This document shows positions 3,001-54,288 of a DNA stretch of 58,855 nt, piece by piece. Position numbers and translations under genes: made by a program. The notes beneath the pieces are model-generated. The model was not told the DNA's origin. It saw nothing but the letters and a program-made list of their open reading frames with translations, and searched no databases. Numbering within the stretch: the first letter of the stretch is position 1; the number at the start of each line of letters is the position of its first letter. The stretch lies in assembly GCA_016124315.1 (NCBI GenBank), contig WGNW01000087.1:1-58855 (forward strand). The letters run 5' to 3'. The DNA comes from Alphaproteobacteria bacterium (GTDB lineage Bacteria > Pseudomonadota > Alphaproteobacteria > SMXS01).

Positions 3001-6000
3001 CATTACCGGTGCGGACGGCGCCGGTGTCGGCATCACCGGCACCGACAACCATGTCACGGCGCACGACGACATCCAGGGCACCTCGGTCGGCATCGGCATC
3101 GTCGGCGACAGCAACCACGTGACGGCGGACGACGACCTGTCGGCCACCGACGGCGACGGCGTCAACCTCGACGGCAACGGCAATGTCATCGTTGTCGGCG
3201 ACCGGATTTCGGCCGACGGCGACGGCGTCAACATCACCGGCAACCAGAACAACGTCACGTTCGACAACATCCACGACACCAGCGGCGACGGCGTCCAGAT
3301 CAACGGTGACCTGAACGACGTGAACGTCGGCTCGGCGATCGAGGTGGACGGCAACGGCGTCTGGTTCGACAGTGGCACCGGCAACAATGTCGACCTGCGG
3401 GGCGTCACGATCGACGCCGGGCTGGACGGCATCCTGGTCGACAATGCCGGCAACACCTTCCAGCACGACAGCGCCACCCACGTCATCGCGGGTGAGAACG
3501 GCATCGAGTATGGGTATGGCGGCACCACCAATGCCCCCGAGGCGCTGGTGTGGTACGGCACCATCGACGCGGCCGGCAACGGCATTCAGACCGGCGGCGA
3601 CTGGTTCTCCATCACCAACCACGGCACCATCAACGCCGACACCGACACCGATCAGGCCGGTACGGGCATCGTGCTCTCGTCCAACAACTACGTGAAGAAC
3701 GCCGGCGACGGCCTGATCACGGGCTGGAACGGCATCACCGGTCAGGACTACAACACCATCATCAACGACGGCACGATCGACGTCGTTAACGACGGTATCG
3801 TCCTCCACGATCACAACTACGTGGAGAACAACTCCAACCTGACCATCGAGAGCGGCGATGACGGCATCGTCGTCAACGACAACAACGAGGTGGTCAACAA
3901 CGGCGTCATTCATGCCGACACGGACAGCAGCGGCGCCGGCACCGGCATTGTCGCCAACGACCACAACGAGATCAGCAACACCGGCACGATCACCGGCTGG
4001 AACGGCGTGTCGATCCACGACAGCAACAAGCTGACCAACGACGGTTCCATCGACGCCAACAATTTCGGCGTCCTGGTCACCGCCGACAACAACACGATCG
4101 ACAACACCAACACGATCAACGGCGATCATGCCGGCGTCCGGGTCGTCTACGGTGAGGACAACACCATCACCAACGACGACACCATCTCGGGCGGCGACGA
4201 AGGCGTGCAGCTGGACAACTCGTCCAACAACCACATCGTCAACAACGACACCATCACGTCCGACGGTGAAGGCATCAACATCGAGAACAACTCGTCCGAC
4301 AACACCGTCGACAACTACGGGACGGTCGAGTCCACCGGCGAAAACGGCGAAGGCATTGAGATCGAATCGAACTCGAACGGCAATACCGTCAACAACTACG
4401 CGGGTGCGACCATCACCGGCTGGGAAGGTGTCGAGTTCGAGGACGATGCCACTGGTAACACCCTGAACAACTGGGGCACCATCAGCGGCGCCTACGCCAT
4501 CGACTTCGAGGAGAGCGCCGACTCCAACTACGTCAACAACTACGCCACGGTGACGGGCACCTACGACGCCGTCTACATCGACGACTCCTACTATACGGAG
4601 ATCTACAACAGCGGGTCGATGACCGGCGGCGACTACGGTGTCGAGGCCTACTACGCCGATGGCACCATCCTGACCAACGACAGCACTGGGACGATCAGCG
4701 GCACGGGCGAGGACGGCGTTTCCTTCGTCAACAGCGATGATGTCACGATCAACAACTACGGCTCGATCACCGGCGGCATCGACGGCGTCTACCTGCAGGG
4801 TGAAAACAACACCGTCAACAACTACGCCGTCGATACGATCCAGGGTTACAGCGGCAACGGCGTCACCATCGTCGGCGACGACAACACCGTCTACAATACC
4901 GGTGCGATCGCCGGTTACGACGAAGGCGTGGCGATCGACGGCGACGGCAACACCGTCGACAATCACGACGTGTATGCCACCATCACCGGCCAGCATGGTG
5001 ACGGCATCGACATCAACAGCGGTACCAACAACAGCATCACCAACTGGGGTACGATCACCGGCCACTGGCAGGGCGTCGACAACAGCAGCGGCAACCTGAC
5101 CATCAACCAGTATGCCGGCACGATCACCGGCCAGAACAGCGATGGTGTCCGGTCGAACACGGGCGAGGACGCCGGCCTCTACGACACGACCATCAACAAC
5201 TACTCGGTGAACTACGGAGAGGACGGCATCGTCGGCGGCGAGATCGTCGGCGCGACCAACGGCGTCGCCGTCGGCGGCTTCGACTTCACCCTGCTCAGCG
5301 GTACGAACAGCAATATCCAGGGCTTGGACGGCGACGGCATCGTTACCTGGGCGCTGACCAACGACATCGAGAACTACGGCACCATCCAGGGCACCGAGAT
5401 CGGCATCCACGACTACGGCGTCACCAATGGTGGCGACTACGACGGAACCACCATCTACAACGGCAGCACCGGCACGATCACCGGCACCCGGGCTGGCTAC
5501 CTCTACGAACCGGCCGGCGACGTGCAGACTTCGGCGTCCTACACCGACTACCCGAGCGACCACACGGTGGAGATTTACAACTACGGCACCATCTCGGTCA
5601 CCGGCGACGGCACGCTTCCCGACGGGTACAACAACCCGCCGGCGAACACCGAGCAGGGCACCCAGGTGTCCGGTGCGGTGGACACGACGCTGATCACCGG
5701 CGAGAACGCGGCCCCGGTCGCGGCCATCGACACCAGCCGCGGCGACGCGAGCCTGGAGACCTACGTTTACAACTGGGGCGTAATCCAGGGCGCCAACGAG
5801 TTCCAGACTCCGACCACGGGTGAAGACGGCGGCAACACCGATCAGTCCTCCACCGTGGCCCAGGCCGACGGCACCATCCAGCTCACCAACCGCTTCGCCA
5901 TCCTGGGCGGCGCGGGCAGCGAGTACGTGGCCAACTTCGCCGGCGGCACCATCAACGGCGACGTAGCCTTGCAGGGCAACGACGACTCTTTCGCCATGGA

Positions 6001-17345: not shown

Positions 17346-17408
17346 GCGTGACAGCGCCAATCCCGCTGAACTAAGATGCGGCGGACGAGGTGAAGGAGAA
17401 TTCCATTC

Positions 17409-17465
17409 GTGAAACCGCGACGCTCCCGACGCCTCGCGCCGCCCGAGAGGCCGTTCCCAGTATGA
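17409..17465 (+). CDS. Putative 18-residue leader peptide upstream of methyltransferase
   Basis: A GTG at 17409 sits 10 nt after a strong Shine-Dalgarno (AAGGAG, 17393-17398). It opens an 18-codon frame encoding an Arg/Pro-rich peptide (VKPRRSRRLAPPERPFPV). Its TGA (17463-17465) overlaps the ATG (17462-17464) of the methyltransferase as ATGA. This is the geometry of a translationally coupled leader. The best ribosome site in this region serves the short ORF rather than the methyltransferase. Alternatively it is chance, and the methyltransferase is read from the weaker GAGAGG at 17445-17450. Confidence 0.4.
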   Translation: MKPRRSRRLAPPERPFPV

Positions 17466-18259
17466 GTAAAGGGCATCGCTCCGGCTCTGCCGCCGCCTAC
17501 CGGGCGGACCGCGACAACCGGACCAGCTACGAGGTTCTCTTCGAGTTTCGCGGCGCCTCCTACGACCGCGCCATGCGGCTGTTTCCGGATGCCAGGCGCG
17601 AGGAGTTCCTGCTGCCGATCGGCCGGTCGAACCTGCCGCCGGGCGCGACGGTCGCCGACGTGCCGTCCCACGGAGGATACCTCGCCAGGTACCTGCCGAG
17701 GGGATGCCGCTGGCTGGGCCACGAGCCCTGCGCCGTCTTCGGTCACGGCGCCGCGGGCGACGACCGCGGCCTGCTCCCCCTGCCCTGGGAGGACGATGCC
17801 GTGGACGCGGCGCTCAGCGTCGCCGGCGTGCATCACGTGGAGGACAAGGTCTCGCTGTTCAGGGAGCTGGCACGGGTCGTCCGGCCGGGCGGCCGCTTCG
17901 TCCTGGCCGACGTGCACGAGGCATCGGACGCGGCCCGCTTCCTCGATGGCTGGGTGGACGCCCACAACAGCACCGGCCATGACGGCCTCTTCCTCGGCGA
18001 GCACACCCTCGACGAGCTGGCGCGCGCCGGCTGGCGGGTGCTCTCGGCCGAACGGGTCGGCTATCACTGGCGCTTCGCGTCCCTCGAGGACATGGGCGAG
18101 TTCTGCCACGGGCTCTTCGACCTGCGCGCATCCACACCCGAGGAGACCGTGCGGGCGATCGACGAGGAGCTGGGCATCGATCGTCTGGAAGACGGCGTCG
18201 GCATGCGCTGGGAACTCTACATGGTGGTCGCGGAGCCTGCCGCGCCCCTCGTCGACTAG
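17462..18259 (+). CDS. Class I SAM-dependent methyltransferase
   Basis: 265 residues. Rossmann methyltransferase features: motif I-like ATVADVPSHGGYLARYL (about residues 61-77), an acidic LPWEDDAVDAALSVAGVHHV segment (motif IV region, about residues 104-123), then VRPGGRFVLADVHEASD. The glycine-rich loop reads DVPSHGG rather than DxGxGxG, so it belongs to a divergent group. It is followed after only 6 nt by the cyanophycin-synthetase-like ATP-grasp gene, so the two are almost certainly cotranscribed and probably act on the same molecule. Methyl acceptor unknown. Confidence 0.8.
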   Translation: MSKGHRSGSAAAYRADRDNRTSYEVLFEFRGASYDRAMRLFPDARREEFLLPIGRSNLPPGATVADVPSHGGYLARYLPRGCRWLGHEPCAVFGHGAAGDDRGLLPLPWEDDAVDAALSVAGVHHVEDKVSLFRELARVVRPGGRFVLADVHEASDAARFLDGWVDAHNSTGHDGLFLGEHTLDELARAGWRVLSAERVGYHWRFASLEDMGEFCHGLFDLRASTPEETVRAIDEELGIDRLEDGVGMRWELYMVVAEPAAPLVD

Positions 18260-18265
18260 GTTCCG

Positions 18266-20455
18266 ATGGCCGAGGCGACAACCGAAGAAGCCGAGTCCCG
18301 CGGGGACGGCGTTGCGCGGGTCGTGCGATGGGATTTCGCCATCAACGGCCTTGCCTTCGGTCTCGCACAGCCTTTTTTGAAAGGGACGGTCCGGATCGAC
18401 CTTCCGCAGAACCCGGCCTGGGAAGAAGCGGAGGACCTGATCGGCGGCGTGCTCTCCTGCGCGGCGGCATTCAACCGAACCGCGCCGTCCGAGGACGAAC
18501 TGCTGATCGCGCGGCTGATCCGCTGGACGGCGGCGCTGGAAGCCGCCGTGGGCGCCCCCGACCTGGAGCGCGGCAGGATGCTGGGCGCGATTCGCGAGAA
18601 GCGCCTCTATTCGATCGCCCTGCCGACCCTGGATCACAACCTCACGTCGCGCGCCTTCAAGGCCGTAGTCAGCCTTTACGGCGCCCGGCTTGCGAACGCC
18701 GACGGGCCCCGTCTCGCGGCGGCGGGCGAGGAGCTAGAAGCGTTCCTCAAGACCGCGAAAGTCTCGATGTTCGGCGGTTCCAACACGCTGCGGCTGCTGG
18801 AAGCGGCCCATAAGCGCCGGATGCCCTGGAGCCACCTGGCCGGTAACGCCTTCGTCATCGGGCATGGCGCGCGGGCGCGCTGGATCGACAGCTCGTTCAC
18901 CGACCAGACCGGCGTGGTCGGCACCAACCTCGCCCGCAACAAGGCGGCCGCCGCAAGCCTGCTTCGCCAGTCGGGCATCCCCGTGCCGGCGCATGGACGG
19001 GCCGCGGACGTCGCCTCGGCGCAGCGCATTGCCAAGGAACTGGGCTATCCCGTGGTGGTGAAGCCCATGGACAGGGACGGCGGCCTGGGCGTCTCCGCGG
19101 GCATCGCCTCGCCTGAACGTCTGGAAAGGGCGTTCAACGAAGCCCTGAAGATCTCGAGCAACGTGCTGGTGGAAAAGCATGTGGAGGGGCGCGATTACCG
19201 CCTGATCGTCCACGACGGCGAGCTGATCTGGGCGCTGGAGAGGGTTCCGGGCGGCGTGACCGGCGACGGGCGGCGGACGGTGCGCGAGCTCGTCGACGCC
19301 GTCAACGCCGATCCCGCCCGCCGCAAGGAGCCCTGGGCGCCGCTCAAGCCGCTGGAGTTGAACGACGAGGCGATGGACCTGCTCGCGGAGGCAGGGCTGG
19401 ACGGCGACAGCGTGCTCGAGGTCGGCCGACGGCTGCGGCTTCGGCGCGCCGCCAACATCGCGTCGGGCGGCACGCCGGTGGCCGTGCTCGACAAGGTGCA
19501 TCCGGTCAACCGCGAACTGGCCGAGCGGGCGGCGAAGGTGATGCGCCTCGACCTGGCGGGGGTCGACCTTCTGATCCCCGACATCTCCGTGCCCTGGACC
19601 GAGAGCGGCGGCGCCGTGTGCGAGGTCAACGCCCAGCCCACCATCGGCGCCACCACCGCCTCGCACCTCTATGGCGAGATACTGGGCAGGATGATCGTGG
19701 CGAACGGGCGTATTCCCATCGCGCTGATCGTCGGCGCCCCGGAGGAATCGCCAGTGCCCGAACTGGTCGCGCGGATGCTGGCCGCCACCGGGCGGCGGGT
19801 CGGACTGGCCACCCCCAAGGTCCTCAGGATCGGCGGCCGGCCGGCGGAGGCGCCGTCGTTCGACGCCTACGGCTATTGCCGGTTCATGCTGCTCTCGGCG
19901 GATGTCGAAGCCGCGGTGCTTTCCGTATCGAGCCGGTCCGTGCTGGCTTCGTGCCTGCCGTTCGACCGCGCCAGCGTCGTCTGTCTCGCCGGCACCGAGA
20001 TCAGCGGCGCGCAGGACCACCGCGCGGACTTGAACACCCTCATGCGCATGGTGCTGCCCATGACCTGGGGACCCGTCGTGGTGAACGCCGAGCATCCGGA
20101 GCTCGTGGCCCTGCTGTCGGTGATCCGCGGCGGCACGATCACGCTGGCGGCCGCCGATGGCGACGCGCCGGCCCTCGCCGCCCACCGGGACGCGGGCGGG
20201 GCGACGGCGGCGATCGAGGGTGTGGCCGGCGCTCGTGAACTGGTCTACGGACCGCGCAGGGGAGACTTCGTGCGACTCCCGCTGGACTCCGGTGGCAGGG
20301 ATGCGCTGGCCTGCACGCCCGCCGACATCGCCCTGGCGGCTTCGGCCGCCTTCGCCGTGGGGTGCACGCCGGCACAGATCCAGACCGGACTGGGCGGCCT
20401 GCGCCTCCTGGAGCGCGCCAGGCTCGCCCGCGCGAAAGCTACAGAGCCATCCTGA
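18266..20455 (+). CDS. Cyanophycin-synthetase-like ATP-grasp ligase with inactive Mur-like domain
   Basis: 729 residues, arranged like CphA: an N-terminal region (~1-220), an ATP-grasp module (~225-470) and a C-terminal Mur-ligase-like region (~480-729). ATP-grasp residues are present: YPVVVKPMD with K266, LVEKHVEGRDYRLIV, GGVTGDGRRTV, and the metal-binding pair in VCEVNAQP (E453, N455). In true CphA1 the next block is GRIPI-x-x-V-TGTNGKT; here it reads GRIPIALIVGAPEES (loop at 490-495), so the second ATP site should be dead although the fold continues (RVGLATPKVLRIGGRP). It should form one kind of amide bond through an acyl-phosphate; the substrate is unknown. No cyanophycinase is nearby. 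The 3' end overlaps the convergent chrA-like gene by 17 nt. Confidence 0.82.
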   Translation: MAEATTEEAESRGDGVARVVRWDFAINGLAFGLAQPFLKGTVRIDLPQNPAWEEAEDLIGGVLSCAAAFNRTAPSEDELLIARLIRWTAALEAAVGAPDLERGRMLGAIREKRLYSIALPTLDHNLTSRAFKAVVSLYGARLANADGPRLAAAGEELEAFLKTAKVSMFGGSNTLRLLEAAHKRRMPWSHLAGNAFVIGHGARARWIDSSFTDQTGVVGTNLARNKAAAASLLRQSGIPVPAHGRAADVASAQRIAKELGYPVVVKPMDRDGGLGVSAGIASPERLERAFNEALKISSNVLVEKHVEGRDYRLIVHDGELIWALERVPGGVTGDGRRTVRELVDAVNADPARRKEPWAPLKPLELNDEAMDLLAEAGLDGDSVLEVGRRLRLRRAANIASGGTPVAVLDKVHPVNRELAERAAKVMRLDLAGVDLLIPDISVPWTESGGAVCEVNAQPTIGATTASHLYGEILGRMIVANGRIPIALIVGAPEESPVPELVARMLAATGRRVGLATPKVLRIGGRPAEAPSFDAYGYCRFMLLSADVEAAVLSVSSRSVLASCLPFDRASVVCLAGTEISGAQDHRADLNTLMRMVLPMTWGPVVVNAEHPELVALLSVIRGGTITLAAADGDAPALAAHRDAGGATAAIEGVAGARELVYGPRRGDFVRLPLDSGGRDALACTPADIALAASAAFAVGCTPAQIQTGLGGLRLLERARLARAKATEPS

Positions 20456-38196: not shown

Positions 38197-40242
38197 CTAG
38201 AAGCTCACCCCTACGCCGCCGAACAGGGTGCGCGGCAGGCCCGGCTTCAGTTCGACGCCGTTGAAGGCGGTATAGCGTCCGTTGGTGGCATAGCGCTGGT
38301 TGAGCACGTTGTGCAGCCGCACGAACACCTCGACGCCCTTGGCCACGAACATGTTGGCGCTGAGGTGCAGCAGGTCGTGGCCGCCATAGGTGTGGGTGTT
38401 GTCGTCGTCCAGGTAGTACGAGCCCAGGTGTTCCCAGGAAACCTCGAATCGGCCGCCGTTGAGGAAGCCGGGCCGCCAGTCCAGGCGGGCGCTGCCCACG
38501 TCCTTGGGCGATCGGTTGATCTTGTTGCCGGACAGGTCGACGCCGCTCACCGGTGTCCAGTCGATGAAGTGGTTGTCGGTCCGGGCATAGGACGCCGACA
38601 GGCTGAGCGTGGGCGTCACGTCGACGGTCACGCCCAGCTCGACGCCCTTGTGACGGGTGTCGCCGGCGTTCTGGATGTCGCGCACGCCGGTGGCGTTGTC
38701 GGTGAACACCAGGATGTCGTTCTTGATCTCCATAGTGTAGAGCGACAGGTCGAAGCTCACCCGCTGCCAGCGGCCGCGCAGCCCCACCTCGAAGCTCTCC
38801 GCCTTCACCGGCTTGAGGTCGGTGGAGCTTGACGAGGTGCCGGGCCGGAAGAGCTGGGCGGTGGTCGGCACCCGGAACGCCTGGCGATAGGAGAAGAAGG
38901 CATTCAGCCGGTCGGTGATGTCGTAGGTGAAGCCGGCCTTCGGAGTGAAGTTGCCGAAATGCAGCGTCTGGCTGGGCGGCCGGTTATGGGCCGCGGTCGG
39001 GTCGACCACGGTGCTCAAATTGTTGGTGTAGTCGTAGTGGGTGTAGTCGTAGCGCAGGCCCGCCGTCAGCCGCAGCCGCGGCGTGATCTGCCATTCGCCG
39101 TGCAGGTAGGGCGACAGAGTCAGCGCCTTGACGTTGAAGTCGTAGATGGTGCCCGCGTCGCTGAAGCTCACATAGAACTTGCCGTTCTTCACCGGGACGA
39201 TCCGGGTGTCGACCCGGCCGCCTGACGTGTGGTCGATGTCGAAGCCGGCGATCAGCCGGAACGAGTCGGAGAAGTCGTGGCGGAACTTGATCAATGCGCC
39301 CAGCGAGGTGGCGCTCTCGTCGAAATACGCCGGGTCGAAGGACAGCTGGAAGAACGGCAGCAGCTTGGTGCGGCCCCAGCGCACATAGGGATCGACGCTC
39401 AGCAGGCTGTCGCCGGCGGCATAGTCGATCAGGCTGTAGAAGCGCACGGATTCCACCAGCCGGAAGTCGATGGGCGACAGGTTGATGCGCGGATTGTTTC
39501 GGTAGTCGGCGAAGCTGAGGTTGGAGCCCGGCGAATCCTGGTTGACCCGCGCCAGCACCAGCACGTTGCGCACCGTCAGTGGCCCGCCATTGTCGATGGT
39601 CCAGGTGAGGGTGCCGAGCTGGTGATCGGCCTCGGTGGCGTCGCGCCAGCCGCTGTCCTGCATCAGGTTGATGTCGGCGCGGATGCCGTGCACGCCGACG
39701 GTGCCGCCCAGCGAGACCAGCGCCTGCTTGTAGCCGCGGGTGCTGCCCTGGAGCTGGATGCTGCCTTCGAAGTCCTTGGGCGGGCTGGGGGTGACGATGT
39801 TGATGACGCCGGCCACGGCGTCGGAGCCGTAGAGCGCGGTGCCCGGCCCCTTGGTGATCTCCATCCGCTCGATCTGCGACACGTTCATGTCGAACATGGC
39901 GTTGGTCTCGAAGAAGCCGGGCGCCTGCTTGGGCACGCCGTTCTCCAGGTAGAGGTAGAGCGGGTTGAAGTTGATCGGCTGGCGGATGGCGGTGACGTGG
40001 TGGTCGCCGCTCAGCCATCCCTGATAGACCCCGGGGATGCGGCCCATGATCTCCGACGGGTGGGTGACGTGGGCCTCGGCCAGTTCCTGCGCGTCCAGTA
40101 CGCCGATGCTTTCCGGCAGGTCGAACAGCGGCGTACCCTCGCGCGTCGCCGTCACCACCACCTGGCCCGGCTCGGCCGCCGCCGCGGCGGACAGGCCGAC
40201 GGCGGTGATCGCTGCCAGAGAGGCTGCAAGAATTGGCTTGAT
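38197..40242 (-). CDS. TonB-dependent outer-membrane receptor with non-canonical ATC start
   Basis: About 681 residues if read from the ATC at 40242. That frame begins (I/M)KPILAASLAAITAVGLSA, a textbook Sec signal peptide ending AAAAAEPG, followed by the TonB box VVVTATREG. The plug domain has VERMEI-type QIERMEITKGPGTALYGSDA and VAGVINIVTP; a 22-strand barrel follows, ending in Phe (LFGGVGVSF). The first ATG/GTG available is the GTG at 40161, inside the TonB box, which would delete the signal peptide and cannot give an exported receptor. A GGGGGAGCGG ribosome site lies just before the ATC. Ligand (ferric siderophore, cobalamin or other) not determinable. Divergent from the Rieske oxygenase operon. 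Confidence 0.85.
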   Translation of the reverse strand: MKPILAASLAAITAVGLSAAAAAEPGQVVVTATREGTPLFDLPESIGVLDAQELAEAHVTHPSEIMGRIPGVYQGWLSGDHHVTAIRQPINFNPLYLYLENGVPKQAPGFFETNAMFDMNVSQIERMEITKGPGTALYGSDAVAGVINIVTPSPPKDFEGSIQLQGSTRGYKQALVSLGGTVGVHGIRADINLMQDSGWRDATEADHQLGTLTWTIDNGGPLTVRNVLVLARVNQDSPGSNLSFADYRNNPRINLSPIDFRLVESVRFYSLIDYAAGDSLLSVDPYVRWGRTKLLPFFQLSFDPAYFDESATSLGALIKFRHDFSDSFRLIAGFDIDHTSGGRVDTRIVPVKNGKFYVSFSDAGTIYDFNVKALTLSPYLHGEWQITPRLRLTAGLRYDYTHYDYTNNLSTVVDPTAAHNRPPSQTLHFGNFTPKAGFTYDITDRLNAFFSYRQAFRVPTTAQLFRPGTSSSSTDLKPVKAESFEVGLRGRWQRVSFDLSLYTMEIKNDILVFTDNATGVRDIQNAGDTRHKGVELGVTVDVTPTLSLSASYARTDNHFIDWTPVSGVDLSGNKINRSPKDVGSARLDWRPGFLNGGRFEVSWEHLGSYYLDDDNTHTYGGHDLLHLSANMFVAKGVEVFVRLHNVLNQRYATNGRYTAFNGVELKPGLPRTLFGGVGVSF

Positions 40243-45171: not shown

Positions 45172-47079
45172 CTAGATCTCCACCAGCGAGCCGAGCTCGA
45201 CCACCCGGTTCGCGGGAATGCCGAAGAACGCGGTGGGGTCCGCCGCATTGCGGTGCAGGAAGGTGTAGAGCGTCGTCATCCATGCCGGCAGCAGCGGGCG
45301 GGCCGAACGGCGGATGGCGTTGCGCCCCACATAGAAGGAGGTGCCGCCCGGCGCCGACAGCAGCGACGGACCGCGCGCCAGGTCGCTGGGCAGGTCGACC
45401 TCGTCCATGTAGCCGTAGTGCAGGGTGGCGCGCACGAAATGCTCGTCGACGCCGCGCACTTCCAGCCGCTCCCGCACCGGCACGTGCGGGTCTTCCTCGG
45501 TCACCACCCAGAGCAGAATATTCTTCCGGTGCAGCGCCTTGTTGTGCTTGAGGTTGTGCAACAGCGCCGAGGGCGCGCTGGCCGGATCCTGGGTCAGGAA
45601 CACGGCGACGCCGTCGACGATGGCCGGCGGTCGGTTGGCCAGCACCCGGGCCAGTTCGTCGATGGGAACGCTCTGTTCGCCGCCCCGGCGCAATACGGTC
45701 CGGCGGCCCCGCATCCATGTGAGGATGACGAGGCCGACGACGGCGGCCACCAGCAGCGGCACCCAGCCGCCTTCGCTCACCCGCAGGAAGTTGGCGCCGA
45801 AGAACACCAGGTCGAGGACGAGGAAGGGCGCGATGAACAGTGCCGATCCCCAGACCGGCCAGCCCCATGCGCGCCAGACGATCACGAAGGCGAGACAGGT
45901 GGTGACCACCATGGTGCCGGTGACGGCGATGCCGTAGGCGGCCGCCATCGCCGAGCTGCTGCGGAAGGCGAAGACCAGCAGCATGACGCCCGCCAGCAGC
46001 AGCCAGTTCACCACCGGCATGTAGATCTGGCCGATCTTGTCGGCGGAGGTGCGGCGGATGGTGAGCCGGGGCAGCAGGCCGAGGGCGATCGCCTGCTGGG
46101 AGAGCGAGTAGGCGCCGGTGATCACCGCCTGGCTGGCGATGATGGTCGCGAGCGTGGCCAGGATCACCAGCGGAGCGCGCAAGGCGTCGGGCGCCATCAG
46201 GAAAAACCAGTCGGCGTTGGCGAACGGCCGGCCCGCGGCCTGGGCGGCGTGGAGCGCAGACAGGGCGAAGGCGCCCTGGCCCAGGTAGTTCAGGGTGAGC
46301 GCCGGCCAGACGAAGCCGAGCCAGCCGAGCTGGATCGGCAGCCTTCCGAAATGCCCCAGGTCGGCGATCAGCGCCTCCGCGCCGGTGACCGTCAGGAACA
46401 CGGCTCCCAGCACGAACAGGCCGGCGACGCCGTGGCCGGCGAGGAACGTCACGGCGTACCCCGGATCGAACGCCAGCAGGATCTGCGGCGCGTCGGCAAT
46501 GTGCCAGATCCCGAGTCCGGCGATGGCGAGAAACCAGACGGCGCAGACCGGTCCGAACAGGCGCGCGACCCTGGCCGTGCCCCGCGACTGGATGGAGAAC
46601 AGGCCCAGCAGGATGCCGGCGGTCAGGCCGAGGGTCAGCGGCTCGCTCATGACGTCGTTCAGGCCCGGCACCGTGCCGAGCCCCTCGACGGCCGACAGCA
46701 CGGACAGGGCGGGTGTGATGATCGCGTCGCCGAAGAACAGGGCGGCGCCGGCGGCTCCGAGCAGGAGGACCAGGGGCCATGCGCCGCGCGTCGCCCGGTT
46801 GGCCAGCGCCATCAGCGACAAGACGCCACCCTCGCCGCGATTGTCGGCACGGGTGAGGAAGAGGACATATTTCACCGTCACGACGATGATCAGCGCCCAC
46901 AGAGCGAGCGAGAGTACACCCAGAATCTCGCTGCGGACAATGCCGCCGCCGGCGGCCTGTGCCAACGCCTCGCGGAATGCGTAGAGCGGGCTTGTGCCGA
47001 TGGCGCCGTAGACGACGCCGATGGCGCCGAGCGTCAGGCCGGCGACATCGGCGCGGGGCTGGGCCGGATTGGCGGGCAT
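45172..47079 (-). CDS. kup: Kup-type potassium uptake protein
   Basis: 635 residues from ATG 47079, chosen because GGAGGA lies 7 nt upstream (the frame extends to 47118). K+/H+ symporter of the KUP/HAK/KT family: N-terminal GAIGVVYGAIGTSPLYAF, RADNRGEGGVLSLMALA, ALFFGDAIITPALSVLSAVEG, and about 12 membrane segments, then a cytoplasmic C-terminal ~170 residues ending in FFGIPANRVVELG. It is the first gene of kup-kdpD-kdpE (4-nt gap to kdpD), so uptake and its presumed sensor system are on one transcript. Confidence 0.94.
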   Translation of the reverse strand: MPANPAQPRADVAGLTLGAIGVVYGAIGTSPLYAFREALAQAAGGGIVRSEILGVLSLALWALIIVVTVKYVLFLTRADNRGEGGVLSLMALANRATRGAWPLVLLLGAAGAALFFGDAIITPALSVLSAVEGLGTVPGLNDVMSEPLTLGLTAGILLGLFSIQSRGTARVARLFGPVCAVWFLAIAGLGIWHIADAPQILLAFDPGYAVTFLAGHGVAGLFVLGAVFLTVTGAEALIADLGHFGRLPIQLGWLGFVWPALTLNYLGQGAFALSALHAAQAAGRPFANADWFFLMAPDALRAPLVILATLATIIASQAVITGAYSLSQQAIALGLLPRLTIRRTSADKIGQIYMPVVNWLLLAGVMLLVFAFRSSSAMAAAYGIAVTGTMVVTTCLAFVIVWRAWGWPVWGSALFIAPFLVLDLVFFGANFLRVSEGGWVPLLVAAVVGLVILTWMRGRRTVLRRGGEQSVPIDELARVLANRPPAIVDGVAVFLTQDPASAPSALLHNLKHNKALHRKNILLWVVTEEDPHVPVRERLEVRGVDEHFVRATLHYGYMDEVDLPSDLARGPSLLSAPGGTSFYVGRNAIRRSARPLLPAWMTTLYTFLHRNAADPTAFFGIPANRVVELGSLVEI

Positions 47080-47233
47080 GGGGCGGTCCTCCGTGATGAG
47101 CGCCCCGTCGTGCCGCAAGACCGCGTTACGGCGCCATCGGGAACCGGGCCACCAGGCGTAAAATCCGCGTAAAGGCGCTGGCTGACGATGGGTGCGTCGC
47201 GCTGTCGCAGACCAGGTGAGGCACTAGCACCAG

Positions 47234-47353: not shown

Positions 47354-48958
47354 TCAGATACCGGCCATTACCGAACCGATCGGCCTGCCTTCGACGTGCT
47401 CGGGTATGTCCACTCCCATCCTGTCCAGCAGGGTGGCGGTCACATCCGCCGTCTTGACCGGCGGCAGGCGGGTGCCGGGGGCGAAGCCGTCGCCGCGGGC
47501 CAGCACGAAGCCCTGGGTGGCGTGGCCGCCGCTTCGGAAGTAGGGGACGGGACCGATGCGCCCGAGCGTGGGATGCTCGACGCAGTCGGCGGAAAGATCG
47601 TCGCGCCACAGCACCATCAGGTCGGCGGGAGAGCTGCCGGGGTCCTGCTCCGGCGTGGCGCGGACGCGGATGATCTCGCGGGCCAGCGGCGCGCCCGTCC
47701 GCGCGTCGGCGAGTCCCTGCACGACGGCCGTCACCTCGTCGCAGACTCGGCCGAAATCCGCCGGGTCGACGCCGCCGGTTCCGTCGCGGCCCGCCACGTT
47801 CAGCCGGATCAGGCCTTCCGAATAGCCGGGCAGGGTGAAGGCGCGCATGGAAGGCCACAGCGGCCGGAACCAGTTGCCGGGATCCCAGTCCAGCGGGTCG
47901 CGCCGCGCTTCCTGCGCGGCGGGCGAGTCCAGCACCGTGTCGCCGTGTTCGGTCCGCAGGTCCCAGACCTCCTCGCTCCAGTGGCGCCGGTAGTCGACGC
48001 GTGGCGGCGGGACCGGCCCGGCCGCCGCGCGGCCGGCGAATGCTGCCTCGCCGCTGCTCCAGCGGTAGAGCAGCTCGGGCAGGAACAGCATGGAGCTGAG
48101 GTCGATGGAATTGGCCTGCATGCCGTGAGGCGAGAAGACGAACAGCCTGGCATCGGCCGGCAGCTCCTCGCTCAGCACGCCGAGGCCCGAGTCGATCGCC
48201 TGGAGGATGTCGAGCACGTAGTCGCTGCCAGCCTGCGCACGCAGAGCCTCCTGCAGCAGATGCGGCTGGCTGAGATGCCAGAACAGGTGGCCGGCGGTAT
48301 GGATTTCGGCGTACACGCCGATCAACAGGTCCCAGCGTTCCCGGCGCATCAGGTCGCGGATGATGGCGGTGCGCTGGTGCGTCGACGCGATCAGCTTGTC
48401 GCGGACGCCGCGCTGCACCTCCACGTCGTAGAGGCACGGGATGCGGTAGGACAGCGTCTCCGTGCCGTCGTCCGCGTTGGTGATGGTATCGTAGAGCGGA
48501 TGGCGCCCGTGGCGCGCGATGACTTGCGCCATCAGGTCCGGCGGCGAGGACTGCCGCAGGATCTGGTTCACTTCCGTTCCCCAGCCCAGGAGCTGTACGC
48601 CGTCGACGTCATCGACGAGGCCTGTCAGCGGCACGTCGAAGACGGCGACGCGGCGCCGGTCGCCCAGGGCGTAGAACGGCTGGAAGTGCTTGAAGCCGTA
48701 CGCGGCACGCTCCCGCAGTTCGTAGCTGCTGGCGGTGTAGTCCTGGTGTCCCCACTCATGGCTGGTTTCGGCGGAGCAGCCGTGCAGCAGCGTCAGCCAG
48801 CTGTTCTCGGTGCGGTAGAGGCTGAAATTGTCCTGTCGGGCATAGAGCCCGTCGTCGAACAGCCGAGCCAGATTGGGCAGCAGTCCCTGCCCGACCCAGT
48901 CCTCGAGCATGTCAGGCGCCAGCGCGTCGAGGCCGATGGCAATCACGGGAGCGGGCAT
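47354..48958 (-). CDS. Alkaline phosphatase superfamily protein (type I phosphodiesterase/nucleotide pyrophosphatase-like)
   Basis: 534 residues. Metal-site elements of the superfamily: IGLDALAPDML (Asp10), a likely Thr nucleophile in RTENSWLTLLHG, YAEIHTAGHLFWH (E-x-H-x-x-G-H in place of the usual D-x-x-x-H) and FSPHGMQAN, then GHATQGFVLARGDG. The His-type ligands are those of a bacterial subfamily of putative phospho- or sulfo-hydrolases often found near sugar or surface-polymer genes. No signal peptide, so probably cytoplasmic. It lies 21 nt downstream of the glycosyltransferase gene on the same strand and belongs to the second ATP-grasp locus. Confidence 0.83.
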   Translation of the reverse strand: MPAPVIAIGLDALAPDMLEDWVGQGLLPNLARLFDDGLYARQDNFSLYRTENSWLTLLHGCSAETSHEWGHQDYTASSYELRERAAYGFKHFQPFYALGDRRRVAVFDVPLTGLVDDVDGVQLLGWGTEVNQILRQSSPPDLMAQVIARHGRHPLYDTITNADDGTETLSYRIPCLYDVEVQRGVRDKLIASTHQRTAIIRDLMRRERWDLLIGVYAEIHTAGHLFWHLSQPHLLQEALRAQAGSDYVLDILQAIDSGLGVLSEELPADARLFVFSPHGMQANSIDLSSMLFLPELLYRWSSGEAAFAGRAAAGPVPPPRVDYRRHWSEEVWDLRTEHGDTVLDSPAAQEARRDPLDWDPGNWFRPLWPSMRAFTLPGYSEGLIRLNVAGRDGTGGVDPADFGRVCDEVTAVVQGLADARTGAPLAREIIRVRATPEQDPGSSPADLMVLWRDDLSADCVEHPTLGRIGPVPYFRSGGHATQGFVLARGDGFAPGTRLPPVKTADVTATLLDRMGVDIPEHVEGRPIGSVMAGI

Positions 48959-48979
48959 TAACGGGCCTCCGTCAGCATC

Positions 48980-49906
48980 TCAATAGGGAAAGGCATAAGG
49001 GCGGACGGCGTCAAGCCGGCCGCTGGCGGCGTCGCAAGCCGCCTGTTCGAGCCAGCCGCCGAGCCGGAAGTTCACCCTGACCTCGAAGTCGTCCGCCACC
49101 TGGCGATGGTATCGCCGCGCGCCCTCCAGCACCGCCTCGGCTTCCGGCCGCCGGCCGCGGGCGGCTTCGATGCCGGCAAGGACCATGGACGCGTTGAGGG
49201 ATTCGACGGGAAACCGCGCCGGCCGTCGCTCGTGAACCGGGCGCAGTATCGCCTCCGCCTCGTCGACTCGGTGGTTGCGATAGGCCATGTAGCCGCTGAA
49301 CCAGTCGTACCGGAGCCAGTCCGGCTGGCGGCGCCGGGCGCAGAGTAGCCGCCATGAATAGCGGATTTCCTTTTCCTGGAGGCGCGACGGGTCGGGGACG
49401 TGCCGGATGCGCAGGCCAGGCGACCAGCACGCGGTCTCGCCGCTGTCGCGCAGGCTGGGCTGCACCGTGTCGTGGATCAGTCCCTGGTGCCTGTGGTTGC
49501 TGCGGAACATGTTGAGCTTGTAGTCCTCGATGACGCAGCCATCGCCATAGTCGGTGTCCCAGGCGGAGAAAAGCCCTGCCGGCAGATCCCGGTCGTCGAG
49601 GGCGATCACCGCCTCGAGCTGTGACCGCTCGATGCGCTCGTCGGCGTCGAGGGTCATCAGCCAGGGCGTCGACAGGCGCTCGAACCCCGAATTGCGCAGC
49701 GTCGACAGCGAGAAGCAATTCGTGGGGGCGAGCTCGGCGACGATCGGCTCGATGCCGAACCGGTCGCGCAGCAGGTCGCAGGTGCGGTCGCGCGAGCCGG
49801 TATCGATGATCACGATCTGCGCAAACAGGTCGGCGATCGGCGACAGGCAGGCGACGATGTTCGCCTCCTCGTCCTTCACGGTCATGCACAGGCCGATGTC
49901 GCGCAT
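48980..49906 (-). CDS. Family 2 glycosyltransferase with helical C-terminal region
   Basis: 308 residues. GT-A fold start MRDIGLCMTVKDEEANIVAC, nucleotide-binding VIIDTGSRDRTCDLLRDRFG and metal-binding LTLDADERIERSQLE (D-x-D-type DAD). The C-terminal ~110 residues look like TPR-type helices (YMAYRNHRVDEAEAILRPV, GIEAARGRRPEAEAVLEGAR). This layout matches GT2 proteins of the SunS/TPR group that modify peptides or proteins as well as sugars. It lies between the phosphodiesterase (21 nt) and the ATP-grasp gene (112 nt), all on the minus strand. Start at ATG 49906 with GAGGGG somewhat far upstream; acceptor unknown. Confidence 0.85.
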   Translation of the reverse strand: MRDIGLCMTVKDEEANIVACLSPIADLFAQIVIIDTGSRDRTCDLLRDRFGIEPIVAELAPTNCFSLSTLRNSGFERLSTPWLMTLDADERIERSQLEAVIALDDRDLPAGLFSAWDTDYGDGCVIEDYKLNMFRSNHRHQGLIHDTVQPSLRDSGETACWSPGLRIRHVPDPSRLQEKEIRYSWRLLCARRRQPDWLRYDWFSGYMAYRNHRVDEAEAILRPVHERRPARFPVESLNASMVLAGIEAARGRRPEAEAVLEGARRYHRQVADDFEVRVNFRLGGWLEQAACDAASGRLDAVRPYAFPY

Positions 49907-50018
49907 GGCGGCTTCGCAGTTCCCCTCTCTGCCGGTCGCCCGTAATGGAGCGCCGCAGCCTATACACGCGATCTGGGTGGGAAGTGCAAGCCCCGTAACG
50001 AGCCGGCCATGGTGGGGG

Positions 50019-51803
50019 CTATTCCGGGACCAGAACGTCGGTGTGCGGCGCCGCCATCGCCAGGATCGTTTCGAGGTCCTCGACCGGGCCAACCACGCGG
50101 ATGCTCTCGAACCGGTCGGTCGGCAGGCCCGCTTGAACGATCTCCCCCGCTGCGATGACGCATAGGGCGGTCTTCGCCGCCGTTTCTTCCAGCATGATGC
50201 GCGCCGCGTGGAAACTGCCCTGGGGCCGGGCGGCAACCTTCCTGCCGTCGATCCAAACGCCGGCCGGCGTCGCCAGTGCATTGCATCCCAGACGGTCGAG
50301 CAGTTGCCGGACGTCGGCCGCCGGGATGCCGGAGGCGCCGACGATCACCAGGTGCACCGGAATGCGATGGCCGCCGCGCATGAGCGACGCGAGAATCTCC
50401 CGGTAGATGTCCGGCGTCGTATTGACGCCGACCTGCGGCTGGGCGTTGACCTCGCAGATCAGCGCCCCGCTCTCGAGCCAGGACGTCGCGATATCGTCGA
50501 TGATCAGGTCCACGCCGGCGAAATCGAGCCGCAGCAGCGCCGCGGCGCGCACGGCGAGATCCCGGTTGTCGGGATGGACACGCTCCGGGGGCACCAGAAT
50601 CTGCATGCCGCCGGTCGAGATGTTGTTCTTGCGCCGGAGCGTTACATACGCGCCCGCGTCGGGAACGCTGTCGGCCGTCATGCCCGCCTCGCCGAGCATG
50701 CCGAGCGCCTCGGCGTCGAGGCTCAGCGGAAAGCGTCCGCTGGTCCTCATGACCTTGCGGAACCGCGGCGTCTGCTGGAGCACGTCCACGAGTTGCCCGA
50801 CCGTGGAGACGCCGTCGCCGGTCACGCCGCCGGCGACCCGGTTCTCGACCTTGACGACCCGGCCGTCGACGACGGTCAGACGGTAGTCGCGGCCGTGAAA
50901 GTGCTTCTCGACCAGAATCTCCCTGGAGAAGGTGAGGGCGGTGGCGAAGGCCTCCCGCACGGCGTCCGGTTCGGCCAGCCCTGCGGCGACGCCGCGTCCC
51001 TGCTCCTGATCGAGGGGCTTGACGACCACCGGATAGCCGAGCGTCTCCGCCGCGCCGACGGCTTCGGCCTCCGTCGTCACCCGCAGGTGGGAAGGTCCGG
51101 GCAGACCGCCGCGCAGCAGGACTTGCGCCGTCGCCAGCTTGCTGTGCGCCAGGTTGACGCCGATCTGCCCCGTCCTGTCGGTGAAGGAACTGTTCAGCCA
51201 CCGGGTGTGCCGGCCGGTGCCGAAGGTGTAGACCGCGCCGAACAGTCTTGTTGTGGGAATGTCCAGATGGTCGGCGGCCCTCAGGAAGTGGAAGGCGTTG
51301 ATCCCCTGCACCTTCCACTGGCGCAGGCGCACGCGCAGGGCCTCCAGCCGCTCGCGCAGGATTTCGGTTCCCGCGTCGGGACGGTTTGCGATCAGGTCGT
51401 CGAGCACGCGGCCGACCCAGTCCAGCATCGCGTGGGAGGCGTCCTTGGTGAAGCAGGGCATCGCCACGGGAACGGCGGTGGCGCCGTCATCGAGGAGGAT
51501 CGCGGGGCCGGCCCGGAACCGGTCGGAAACCGGAATGTTGCACTCCTGCTGGAGGAGCGCCATCCACTGGGCGGCGCGGCAGGCGACCGCCGTCGCGGCG
51601 TCGGGCGCGTCCATCGGTCGCGGCAGCGGATCTTCCGCCATGGCGGCAATGGCCGCGTCGAGGACGGCCAGGTCGAAATCGTCGGGGAGCCTGATCCTGA
51701 ACCGCCCCAGCAGGGTGGACTGCCTGAGTCCATAGCCCATGCCGCCCAGCAGCTTCCAGGAGGATTCCGGTTTGAAGTGGGGCGCGGCGGCTGGCGGGCT
51801 CAT
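50019..51803 (-). CDS. Second cyanophycin-synthetase-like ATP-grasp ligase, truncated Mur-like tail
   Basis: 594 residues, paralogue of the protein at 18266. Shared landmarks in order: RWLNSSFTDRTGQIGVNLAH (RWIDSSFTDQTGVVGTNLAR in the other), YPVVVKPLDQEQGRG with K262, LVEKHFHGRDYRLTVVDG, GGVTGDGVSTV, LDFAGVDLIIDD and ICEVNAQPQVG. After this, CphA1 would have TGTNGKT; here HLVIVGASGIPAADV (loop at 489-494) lacks the P-loop lysine, while LATPAGVWIDGRKV retains the look of the Mur-like domain. The protein stops ~130 residues earlier than its paralogue. One working ATP-grasp site is predicted. Start at ATG 51803 has no clear ribosome site; the frame extends to 51854. Confidence 0.82.
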   Translation of the reverse strand: MSPPAAAPHFKPESSWKLLGGMGYGLRQSTLLGRFRIRLPDDFDLAVLDAAIAAMAEDPLPRPMDAPDAATAVACRAAQWMALLQQECNIPVSDRFRAGPAILLDDGATAVPVAMPCFTKDASHAMLDWVGRVLDDLIANRPDAGTEILRERLEALRVRLRQWKVQGINAFHFLRAADHLDIPTTRLFGAVYTFGTGRHTRWLNSSFTDRTGQIGVNLAHSKLATAQVLLRGGLPGPSHLRVTTEAEAVGAAETLGYPVVVKPLDQEQGRGVAAGLAEPDAVREAFATALTFSREILVEKHFHGRDYRLTVVDGRVVKVENRVAGGVTGDGVSTVGQLVDVLQQTPRFRKVMRTSGRFPLSLDAEALGMLGEAGMTADSVPDAGAYVTLRRKNNISTGGMQILVPPERVHPDNRDLAVRAAALLRLDFAGVDLIIDDIATSWLESGALICEVNAQPQVGVNTTPDIYREILASLMRGGHRIPVHLVIVGASGIPAADVRQLLDRLGCNALATPAGVWIDGRKVAARPQGSFHAARIMLEETAAKTALCVIAAGEIVQAGLPTDRFESIRVVGPVEDLETILAMAAPHTDVLVPE

Positions 51804-51927: not shown

Positions 51928-51980
51928 CCGATGGAGTGTCCGGCGCCTGATATCCCCCTCAGCGCCGGACATTCCATCGG
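51928..51980. other. Long hairpin upstream of the second ATP-grasp gene
   Basis: Arms of 19 nt (51928-51946, CCGATGGAGTGTCCGGCGC; 51962-51980) pair at 18 of 19 positions around a 15-nt loop. No U-tract on either strand and no relation to palindromes A-D. It lies 125-177 nt upstream of the ATP-grasp start, where it could be in the 5' leader RNA. Confidence 0.7.
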
Positions 51981-52138
51981 ACACCGGTCTCGCGTCGCCT
52001 GTCTTGGGCGCCGCCCGGCGATTCAACGGTCTTGGGCATCGTGGAGGGCCGTTGCCCAAAAGCCGTGAAGGACGCGGAGCTTAGCACGAAATCTCGGGCG
52101 CGGCCAGCATTGGTGCCGCCAGGCCGGATGCCGGATGG

Positions 52139-52154
52139 CCGGTAATATTGCCGG
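52139..52154. promoter_or_regulatory. Candidate operator upstream of tetR
   Basis: CCGG-T-AATATT-G-CCGG is a palindrome apart from one symmetric mismatch pair, with an AATATT core rare in this GC-rich DNA, about 107 bp before the TetR start. Confidence 0.35.
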
Positions 52155-52260
52155 TTGCCCGCCTCGGCTTCTACACGATAAATTGAATCGTAGACCGAAG
52201 TGCAATAATCGCGGCCCTGCAGCGGCGGGCGCACGGGAAAGGGAGTGGATCGATCCCATC

Positions 52261-52905
52261 ATGGCATCCTCACCGGCAATGACGAATTCGCGTCGAAGGC
52301 GAGTAAGGAGCCTCGCCACTCGGCAGGAGATCATCGAGGCGACGCTGTCGTGCTTCGTGGACATCGGCTACTTCCGGACCACTACCACCGAGATCGCGCG
52401 CAAGGCGGGCGTGACGCGGGGGGCGGTGCAGCATTACTTTCCGACCACCCAGCACGTCATCGAGGCGTCCATCGATTTCCTGCGGGAGAAGTGGCTCGAG
52501 GCCTATTTCGAGGCGGCGCACCGGACGCCGGTGGGCAAGGACTACATCGACCAGGCCGTCGACAACATGTGGGAACTGGCGAACAGCCGGCTGTCCACTG
52601 TCTGGATGGAACTGATCTCCGCTTCCCGCACCGACGCGGAGTTGCGTGCGATCCTGGAGCCGGCCGCGGCGGAATATGAGAAGGCGCGGCTGGAGGCGGG
52701 GCGCCGCGCCTATCCCGATTTCGCGCTGGCGCAGCGGCAGGTGTTCGACCGCTACCGCGACATGCTGGAGTTCCTCGCGGAAGGCATGATGCGCTCGGTC
52801 ATCATTCACGACCGGGAAGCCCGTATCAAGAATCAGCTCGACTGGCTCAAGCAGGAGCTTCACAAGGTCTGGGAAACCCAGGCCGACAAGGTCCGCATCC
52901 GCTAG
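52261..52905 (+). CDS. TetR/AcrR family transcriptional regulator
   Basis: 214 residues. HTH domain: ATRQEIIEATLSCFVDIGYF, then IARKAGVTRGAVQHYFPTT. The ligand domain contains ASRTDAELRAILEPAAAEYE, the block also seen in the regulators at 25467 and 42322. Start at ATG 52261, or ATG 52279, since the ribosome site is weak for both. Divergent from the ATP-grasp/GT2/phosphodiesterase locus and convergent with the MFS transporter gene (24 nt between stops). A natural candidate to control the divergent locus, unproven. Confidence 0.88.
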   Translation: MASSPAMTNSRRRRVRSLATRQEIIEATLSCFVDIGYFRTTTTEIARKAGVTRGAVQHYFPTTQHVIEASIDFLREKWLEAYFEAAHRTPVGKDYIDQAVDNMWELANSRLSTVWMELISASRTDAELRAILEPAAAEYEKARLEAGRRAYPDFALAQRQVFDRYRDMLEFLAEGMMRSVIIHDREARIKNQLDWLKQELHKVWETQADKVRIR

Positions 52906-52929: not shown

Positions 52930-54288
52930 TCAGGCTTCCCAGTCCTCCGCGTGGCGCAGCGCCGCCCGGTAATGCTTCAGGCCGAACGCCAGGCAGATCG
53001 CGGCCGTGGGATAGGTGAACGCGGCCATGGTCGACAGCGAGAAACCGATGGACGCGTCGCCCAGGAACACGTGGTCGTTGAGCAGGGCCACCACCAGCGG
53101 CGCAAACAGGTAGGACAGGAAGTTCACGGTGATCAGGTAGAACGCCATCACCTGGCCGCGCAGCTCGTTGGGGGCGATCACCTGCAGCGAGGCGTTGCCC
53201 AGGCCCGGCGGCATGCTCATGAAGAAGGTGATGGGCACCAGCAGCACGACGGCGAGCCAGGGCGAGGGCACCAGCGTCATGGCGACGGCCAGCGGCGCCA
53301 CGAACACGGCGCTCCACATCACCAGCCGCAGGGTGGCGTCGGGCGTGCCGCGGCGGATCATACTCCCCGCGTAGAGGCCGCTCGCCATGCTGCCGGCGAG
53401 GCCGACGACCAGGGCGATGCCGCCGTAGAGCAGCCCGATCTCGCCCCGGCCCATGCCGTGCACCCGGACGAAGAACGAGATGATCCACGCGAACAGCGCG
53501 AAGCCCTGGGTCGACAGGCACAGGAAGGCGGCGAAGTGCAGGGCGAAATATTTCCAGCGCGACCCGATGAACCGCACGATCTCGATCATCGGCACGGTCC
53601 TCGGCGCTCCCGTCGGGTCTTCGGCGACGGCGAGACGGCCGCGCCGTTGCGGCTCCTTCAGCAGCAGCACCAGCACCGACAGCAGGATGCCGGGGACGCC
53701 CACCGCCAGGAAGGTGAGCTGCCACGAGAACACCTGTCCCACTACCGGCAGGTCGATGGGCGGCACCGCGTGGAGATACTCGGTAAGCGGCCCGCCCAGC
53801 ATGAAGGCGAGGCCGACGCCGATGAACGGCGACGCCGAGAACAGCGAGATGGCCGCCGGCAGCTTCTCGCGGGAGAAATAGTCGGTGAGCATGGAATAGG
53901 CGGCGGGCGCCAGCAGCGCCTCGCCTACGCCGACGCCCATGCGGGCGAGGAACAGGTGCGGATAGGTGTGCGCGACGCCGCTGAAGGCGGTCATCAGGCT
54001 CCACAGGAAGACGCCGACGCCCATCACCAGCCGGCGCGAGAACCGGTCGGCCAGCCAGCCGGCCGGGATGCTGAGGGCGGTGTAGAAGCTGACGAAGGCG
54101 AGGCCGAGCAGCAGCGCCACCTGGGTGTCGGTGATGTGCAGGTCCTGCTTCACCGGCTCGATCATCACCGCGAGCACCTGCCGGTCGATGAACGACAGAG
54201 TGGCGGCGACGGTCAGTACGACGGTGGCGTACCAGATGTAGCTCGTGCTGTAGCGCGGCGTCCCCGCGCCCGGAACCTGCTTGTGCAC
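52930..54288 (-). CDS. MFS transporter (spinster-like)
   Basis: 452 residues with ~12 membrane segments. LSFIDRQVLAVMIEPVKQDL, then GWLADRFSRRLVMGVG (the MFS A-motif G-x-L-a-D-r-x-g-r-r) and ARMGVGVGEALLAPAAYSML mark the spinster-like group. A charged central loop (KEPQRRGRLAVAEDP) separates the halves. Likely exporter or importer of an organic acid or lipid-like compound. Start uncertain: GTG 54288 has GGAGG almost adjoining, too close for ideal spacing, and no better codon is in frame. Confidence 0.9.
   Translation of the reverse strand: MHKQVPGAGTPRYSTSYIWYATVVLTVAATLSFIDRQVLAVMIEPVKQDLHITDTQVALLLGLAFVSFYTALSIPAGWLADRFSRRLVMGVGVFLWSLMTAFSGVAHTYPHLFLARMGVGVGEALLAPAAYSMLTDYFSREKLPAAISLFSASPFIGVGLAFMLGGPLTEYLHAVPPIDLPVVGQVFSWQLTFLAVGVPGILLSVLVLLLKEPQRRGRLAVAEDPTGAPRTVPMIEIVRFIGSRWKYFALHFAAFLCLSTQGFALFAWIISFFVRVHGMGRGEIGLLYGGIALVVGLAGSMASGLYAGSMIRRGTPDATLRLVMWSAVFVAPLAVAMTLVPSPWLAVVLLVPITFFMSMPPGLGNASLQVIAPNELRGQVMAFYLITVNFLSYLFAPLVVALLNDHVFLGDASIGFSLSTMAAFTYPTAAICLAFGLKHYRAALRHAEDWEA

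Follow-up and report, generated by a model that had tools for sequence, protein, structure and literature searches.

What does a ligase related to cyanophycin synthetase (CphA) contribute to the cell when it lacks the Mur-type P-loop of CphA1 and lies beside a glycosyltransferase and an alkaline-phosphatase-superfamily enzyme? The question is raised by three genes on contig WGNW01000087.1 of an alphaproteobacterial genome (assembly GCA_016124315.1, lineage SMXS01), of which positions 1 to 58,855, referred to below as the window, were analyzed. All three genes lie on the minus strand, and the gaps of 112 and 21 nt given in the initial annotation were obtained again from the coordinates.

50019 to 51803, minus strand: CphA-like ligase, 594 aa from ATG, with N-domain, ATP-grasp site and reduced Mur-like C-domain without P-loop
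50322 to 50339, minus strand: codons of ligase residues 489–494 (GASGIP), the place of the lost Mur P-loop, computed from start 51803
48980 to 49906, minus strand: family 2 glycosyltransferase (GT2), 308 aa, PF00535, DAD motif at residues 87–89
47354 to 48958, minus strand: alkaline-phosphatase-superfamily enzyme, 534 aa, PF01663, here abbreviated PDE (phosphodiesterase)

The open reading frame (ORF) listing places the ligase start at a TTG, position 51854; the ATG start lies at 51803. The trio is a conserved unit under purifying selection, not one in decay, and belongs to a broader group of such modules. With chances that we rate slightly better than even, it represents a modular operon whose single-site amide ligase and glycosyltransferase–PDE pair would lead to a glycosylated, amino-acid-like or amide-type metabolite.

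Conservation and selection

Ligase, GT2 and PDE occur in the same order in three of the six other genomes of the genus (G001, G002 and G004), that is, in 4/7 genus genomes with the window's included. The gaps in the relatives amount to 63 and 15–16 nt, and the GT2 has 308 aa in each. Relaxed selection, with a ratio of nonsynonymous to synonymous substitution rates (dN/dS) near 1, had been named beforehand as the mark of a decaying gene and was not seen. By the NG86 method the comparison of G002 with G004 gave the lowest value for PDE (0.15), followed by GT2 (0.20) and the ligase (0.28); window-to-relative values reached 0.22–0.26 for GT2 and 0.20–0.24 for PDE. A pseudogene is ruled out by the ligase value of 0.28 (G002 vs G004) together with a C-terminal domain that is predicted to be folded (block pLDDT 70–98).

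The ligase

The ligase ORF matches RimK/ATP-grasp models and is of the CphA type at scores far under the curated cut-offs (NF010623, 272.6 vs 877 bits; TIGR02068, 247.2 vs 850 bits), and its match to the CphA profile stops near position 565 of about 865. Residues 489–494 read GASGIP, the counterpart in CphA1 being GTNGKT, the Mur-type P-loop, which confirms the earlier statement that the ATP loop is lost at this place. The AlphaFold2 model (mean pLDDT 92.4) matches the fold of CphA1 (7wae, TMq 0.75) as well as that of Gloeothece CphA2 (7ta5, TMq 0.75, TMt 0.76). Judged by predicted structure and alignment, the enzyme has the composition that defines CphA2, namely N and G domains with a truncated M domain and no P-loop.

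The ATP-grasp residues compared are preserved. The window ligase has counterparts of TeCphA1 K220, K261, R309, R323, N394, S396 and the E/N pair, as do 10/10 PDE-adjacent ligases of the tree described below, and the ATP-/Mg-binding Lys/Lys/Glu/Glu/Asn set is present as K222, K262, E299, E451 and N453. For the roles of the CphA1 ATP-grasp residues compared here we rely on PMC9427784, according to which Arg458 makes contact with the incoming aspartate at its alpha-carboxylate, and His267 stabilizes the acyl-phosphate. In PMC9262961, H267A serves as the mutation that inactivates the G domain, and CphA2 is described as polymerizing beta-Asp-Arg.

Both of these positions are altered. The Arg458 column, occupied by R in 15/15 CphA1 rows and 26/26 P-loop rows of the alignment, holds G459 in the window ligase. 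Within a clade of 55 P-loop-lost rows (see below) R occurs in 0/55, with 4 gaps; the 53 tabulated rows of this clade comprise 31 G, 9 S, 4 gaps and 9 others, the remaining two having A and P. Only 3/66 P-loop-lost rows carry R (L117, L123, L193), all of them outside the clade. At the His267 column the window ligase has Q268, and Q is found in 10/10 PDE-adjacent ligases, compared to 12/15 H and 3/15 Q in the CphA1 rows. Since Q is also seen in CphA1, Arg458 is the cleaner sign of the two. With Arg458 gone and the acyl-phosphate loop different, the ligase most likely does not make cyanophycin.

A plasmid search gave 38 records, 0 of which covered 80% of the query; they were labelled CphA, GshAB, NAGGN synthetase, other or none. 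Of the cyanobacterial genomes, 153/194 gave a match at E≤1e-20, and among the matches listed for cyanobacterial genomes a close one occurred only in the query's own genome, the next being at 2e-56.

Phylogeny and gene neighborhood

A quick IQ-TREE tree without bootstrap was computed from 320 ATP-grasp columns of 92 of the 122 candidate rows; the 30 omitted were duplicates, most of the CphA1 rows that resemble one another, and cut or interrupted ligases. The initial annotation had also considered a grouping of the ligases as ordinary CphA pseudogenes; in the tree 55 P-loop-lost rows share a starred branch (97), and CphA1 (100) lies outside. The single sequence that is probably a CphA2, L181, which has a Peptidase_S51 gene next to it, is likewise placed outside this clade, on a long branch. 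P-loop presence requires four changes on the tree. All 10 PDE-adjacent ligases are found among the 14 rows of one branch, within a 21-row starred branch (99), corresponding to PDE adjacency in 10/14 rows of this clade vs 0/78 outside (Fisher p 1e-10, a value that ignores relatedness and is based on flanks whose visible part differs by locus). The four of the 14 rows with no PDE are L062, L070, L095 and L183; a TctA-family gene stands beside L062, with homologues beside L070 and L095.

The neighbors within 5 kb were counted for 60 P-loop-lost ligase ORFs (56 loci) and 43 P-loop-bearing ORFs (43 loci), after five duplicate loci had been dropped (L060, L063, L073, L077, L079) and with the interrupted G001 ligase entering as two ORFs. 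Near the P-loop-lost ligases we found cytochrome P450 at 13 loci, a methyltransferase at 13, PDE at 9, a 155-aa protein at 8, a family 4 glycosyltransferase (GT4) at 6 and cyanophycinase at 0. Near the P-loop-bearing ligases cyanophycinase occurred at 29 loci, PDE and GT4 at 2 each (L064, L128), P450 at 1 (L100), and methyltransferase and 155-aa protein at 0. The PDE, GT4 and P450 exceptions all belong to loci that hold both ligase types, of which there are four (L064, L100, L101, L128). For cyanophycinase, Peptidase_S51 by Pfam in the 3 proteins checked, the contrast is 29/43 vs 0/60 ligase ORFs (Fisher p 2e-15, ignoring relatedness). The trio relatives account for three of the 13 P450 loci, and this P450 type is abundant in the genome.

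Cyanophycinase was also searched for in whole genomes and found in 0/13 (the window's own, six of the same genus, two of the same family and four of the same class). The known carriers G087 and G132, used as controls, were both detected; a third control, G010, which is one of the 13, again had none. The window's genome (3.95 Mb, 84% complete) encodes four CphA-like ligases, with a P-loop in 0/4. In total, P-loop, Arg458, tree and the absence of cyanophycinase rule out an ordinary CphA1.

Several loci with other partners were observed. In L065, L066, L082, L085, L088 and L092 ligase, 155-aa protein and P450 stand in a row, the 155-aa protein being without a Pfam family above cut-off (L085); a TauD-like gene follows the P450 in L092 (Pfam), with homologues in L082, L085 and L100. 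Ramlibacter sp. WS9 (7 Mb) contains 13 places with CphA-like ligases (L061, L182–L191), one of them with a P-loop, and an ABC transporter gene lies close to three of its ligases that stand in tandem (L188). Cyanobacterial records combine a P-loop-less ligase with a nearby CphA-like protein whose P-loop reads GSxGKT (L064:7358-9946, L128:7370-9955, L100:13830-15959), the two adjoining each other in L064 and L128. One of the four ligases of the window's genome carries a fused Glyco_tranf_2_4 domain, the whole ORF having 952 aa (L053:7266-10124, contig C50).

Glycosyltransferase and PDE

The initial annotation had described a GT2 with a tail of tetratricopeptide repeats (TPR). The family assignment holds (PF00535, 37.6 bits vs cut-off 23.3; the DxD motif is DAD at residues 87–89), whereas no Pfam TPR model matched the tail at E≤0.001. 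Profile comparison revealed remote similarity to GmaR, TagF and SunS.

The PDE had been read as a His-variant of the alkaline-phosphatase (AP) superfamily, in agreement with its PF01663 match and with His220, which occupies the place of the Asp in DxxxH. SPHG replaces the usual SDHG (Asp to Pro), and the second metal site is degenerate: the protein has the Thr50 nucleophile position but not two complete metal sites. The DxxxH and SDHG motifs and the ligand assignments are those of the AP superfamily in general, transferred to our alignment. Asp11, Thr50, His220, His224 and His479 are kept in 4/4 trio copies; in seven GT4-linked PDEs (L046, L047, L061, L064, L128, L078, L208) the Thr50 position is Asn. 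An AP fold was recognized with Foldseek probability 1.00 and TMq 0.38–0.49 among the 50 matches listed. Because of the weak structure model of the PDE (mean pLDDT 76; four further models 42–58; six sequences), the active-site residues were taken from the alignment, which has a one-column uncertainty in the SDHG region between trio and GT4-linked PDEs.

Recurrence of the module

Outside the strict trio, ligase, PDE and a GT4 occur together in eight loci: L046 and L047 (same genus), L061 (Ramlibacter sp. WS9), L064 (Cyanobium), L128 (Synechococcus sp. Cruz-7E5), L078 (Porticoccaceae KatS3mg124, a metagenome-assembled genome), L208 (G434) and L209 (G563). The GT4s from six module loci share 39–73% mutual identity and belong to a Pfam family different from that of the GT2. 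In L078 ligase and PDE form a single 985-aa open frame, in which the end of the contig truncates the N-terminus of the ligase. A ligase of Ramlibacter sp. WS9 is 40% identical to the window's. In Ramlibacter and G434 the ligase is preceded by a DUF1932/NAD-binding dehydrogenase, and a second Ramlibacter locus (L182) contains ligase, partial PDE and a GT4 piece in a shorter, apparently interrupted form. L208:3508-16231 holds four P-loop-less ligases, a methyltransferase, PDE and GT4 inside 13 kb. Sulfotransferases follow the GT4 in L047, and in a same-family genome a PDE homologue adjoins a sulfotransferase gene (PF00685; L198:8860-11444).

In the order of Ramlibacter the PDE was found in 4/300 genomes at E≤1e-40, in 3/4 of them beside such a ligase. 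The GT2 search gave at least 4/385 genomes at E≤1e-30, and G001 and G002 also carry the GT2. In the GT2 loci seen, PDE is adjacent in 7/7 and the ligase in 4/7. The ligase–GT2–PDE trio recurs within the genus and, in the form of ligase–PDE–GT4, beyond it; against a strict trio, GT2 and PDE also occur without the ligase (L211–L213). Since a glycosyltransferase–PDE pair is found without the ligase, PDE and glycosyltransferase constitute the tightest pair, independent of the ligase, which is a frequent third partner.

Proposed function and alternatives

In the operon that we favor, the ATP-grasp site of the ligase would phosphorylate a carboxylate and join it to an amine, forming an amide bond at a single site, the Mur-type second site of CphA1 having been lost as in CphA2. 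The units joined would be amino-acid-like and other than those of cyanophycin. The glycosyltransferase would attach a sugar and the AP-fold enzyme would process a phosphate- or sulfate-linked group, with the ligase possibly supplying or modifying the acceptor for this pair. Extended to the whole family, the idea becomes more tentative, and we consider it possible rather than probable: P-loop-less CphA-like ligases would be the core of widespread, undescribed modular operons, in which a one-site ligase is combined with a PDE–glycosyltransferase pair (GT4 or GT2), an S-adenosylmethionine (SAM) methyltransferase, or a 155-aa protein and a P450, and the PDE-linked clade would produce new glycosylated, phosphate- or sulfate-processed amino-acid conjugates.

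Several observations weigh against the favored operon. One of the four trio ligases, that of G001, contains an in-frame TGA (L045:11026-12576), and the window-to-relative dN/dS of the ligase (0.48–0.49) exceeds that of GT2 and PDE. The 14-row clade has an SH-aLRT of 94, unstarred, in the quick tree without bootstrap, and the change at His267 alone is not diagnostic because 3/15 CphA1 rows carry Q there. Furthermore, the partners can do without the ligase. A Ramlibacter locus (L211, 8042-10587) repeats the gene order of GT2 and PDE, which are 61% and 64% identical to the window's, and the 18 kb stretch around them contains no ligase homologue. In G742 (L212:8378-10899) and G644 (L213:10-2082), both of the same class, a convergent GT2 (46% identity) and PDE lie side by side, and neither genome has a ligase at E≤1e-20. 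L054 combines PDE and GT4 without a ligase, and L210 holds two PDEs but no homologue of the ligase, GT2 or GT4.

A CphA2-type ligase that re-polymerizes beta-Asp-Arg into cyanophycin, with GT2 and PDE as unrelated neighbors, would have the same domain anatomy with its lost Mur P-loop and would explain the match to 7ta5 (TMt 0.76). This is very unlikely in view of the cyanophycinase search, which was positive for the controls but for 0/13 genomes, the window's among them, the P-loop in 0/4 ligases of an 84% complete genome, the position of L181 outside the 55-row clade, though on a long branch, and the recurrence of the partner genes across loci. Equally hard to credit is ordinary synteny, in which the ligase merely stayed beside an unrelated GT2–PDE pair in one genus. 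The conserved TetR, major facilitator superfamily (MFS) and TonB receptor flanks and the solitary GT2–PDE pairs would fit, but adjacency of ligase and PDE extends to beta-, gamma- and alphaproteobacterial as well as cyanobacterial records, with another glycosyltransferase family and once as a fusion, and the PDE-adjacent ligases form one clade.

The remaining alternatives concern the product and the role of the PDE. Glycosyltransferase and AP-fold enzyme could build a phospho- or sulfo-glycan or glycolipid of the cell surface to which the ligase adds amino acids. The pair without ligase, the remote similarity of the GT4 partners to MshA, stp2 and GlcN-PG synthase, and the sulfotransferases after GT4 (L047) and beside a PDE (L198) speak for this. 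In contrast, no flippase, polymerase or export gene was seen among the annotated genes around the trio, which cover part of the neighborhood, and the GT2 is remotely like the protein and peptide glycosyltransferases GmaR and SunS, so that we regard a surface glycan as unlikely, if a serious contender. The AP-fold protein might also be a non-hydrolytic partner of glycosyltransferase and ligase instead of a phosphatase, as the degenerate second metal site, the Asn for Thr50 in seven GT4-linked relatives and the PDE–ligase fusion in L078 suggest. Against this, Thr50, Asp11, His220, His224 and His479 are all intact in the four trio copies and the PDE is strongly constrained (dN/dS 0.10–0.24); we find a non-hydrolytic role unlikely.

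Second ligase locus and flanking genes

The window contains a further ligase, which had been described as a paralogue of the trio ligase likewise lacking the loop. Both points were verified, the identity being 38%.

18266 to 20455, plus strand: P-loop-less paralogous ligase of another subclade, 729 aa, beside a SAM methyltransferase
17390 to 18259, plus strand: SAM methyltransferase, with homologues near P-loop-lost ligases in 13 loci

A ligase of this type and its methyltransferase lie 22–30 kb from the trio on one contig in four genus genomes including the window's, and in L208 a methyltransferase–ligase pair is located 1.3 kb from a ligase–PDE–GT4 module. On account of this shared contig and the spacing in L208, a single pathway may involve both ligase loci of the window. 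The neighborhood of the 18266-type ligase in the relatives (L044:2555-12967 etc.) looks like a fuller biosynthetic cluster: it includes an amidase, an AMP-binding and a chorismate-binding enzyme, a second methyltransferase and a cupin-like protein.

The trio itself is flanked by the following elements:

52135 to 52905, plus strand: divergent TetR-family regulator; a TetR gene lies upstream also in three trio-bearing relatives
51928 to 51980, no strand: 19-nt inverted repeat, 95% complementary, 15-nt spacer, between ligase and TetR
52930 to 54288, minus strand: MFS transporter beside TetR; an MFS-family homologue is there in three relatives (Pfam run on G004 only)
38197 to 40227, minus strand: TonB-dependent receptor, adjoining PDE in three relatives

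The inverted repeat, of whose arm the window holds no further copy at ≤3 mismatches, is near-perfect and a possible operator. In the window the TonB receptor is displaced from PDE by other genes, among them Kup (45172-47118). A P450 precedes the trio ligase in three relatives; as a member of the trio it was discounted, the window's genome having 40 P450-like places. At the other end of the window a 3061-aa open frame extends over positions 47-9232.

Significance and comparison with known systems

In the literature searched, which mostly excluded subscription papers and preprints, we found no description of a family of P-loop-less ligases with PDE and glycosyltransferase. Such ligases score below the cut-offs of the cyanophycin synthetase models and may be mistaken for cyanophycin synthetases or for pseudogenes. 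If they are a separate one-site family with partners of its own, they would point to an overlooked route to amide-containing small molecules and to an unexplained enzyme pair of PDE and glycosyltransferase, and the lost P-loop together with the lost Arg458 would be simple markers separating the family from nitrogen-storage genes.

The anatomy of the ligase is already known from CphA2, with which it shares the N-domain, the ATP-grasp G-domain, the shortened Mur-like domain without P-loop and a full-length fold match. Clade, Arg458 column and partners differ: the window ligase falls in a clade apart from the one probable CphA2 included (L181), which has Y at the Arg458 column and K at the His267 column compared to G and Q here, the window's genome contains no cyanophycinase, and the partners of the window ligase are a glycosyltransferase and an AP-fold enzyme. 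With CphA1 it has homologous N- and G-domains in common (22–27% identity in fold alignments) as well as the conserved ATP-grasp residues, whereas the Mur P-loop and Arg458 are lost, His267 is changed and the neighbors are others. The GT2 resembles SunS- and GmaR-like GT2s in its GT-A start, DxD motif and remote profile similarity; with 19.9 bits it remains below the SunS equivalog cut-off of 350 bits. Finally, the PDE shares the fold and, by the superfamily motifs, the positions Asp11, Thr50, His224 and His479 with nucleotide pyrophosphatase/phosphodiesterases and the alkaline phosphatase SPAP, and is distinguished from them by His220 for Asp, SPHG for SDHG and an identity of 10–15% among the matches listed.

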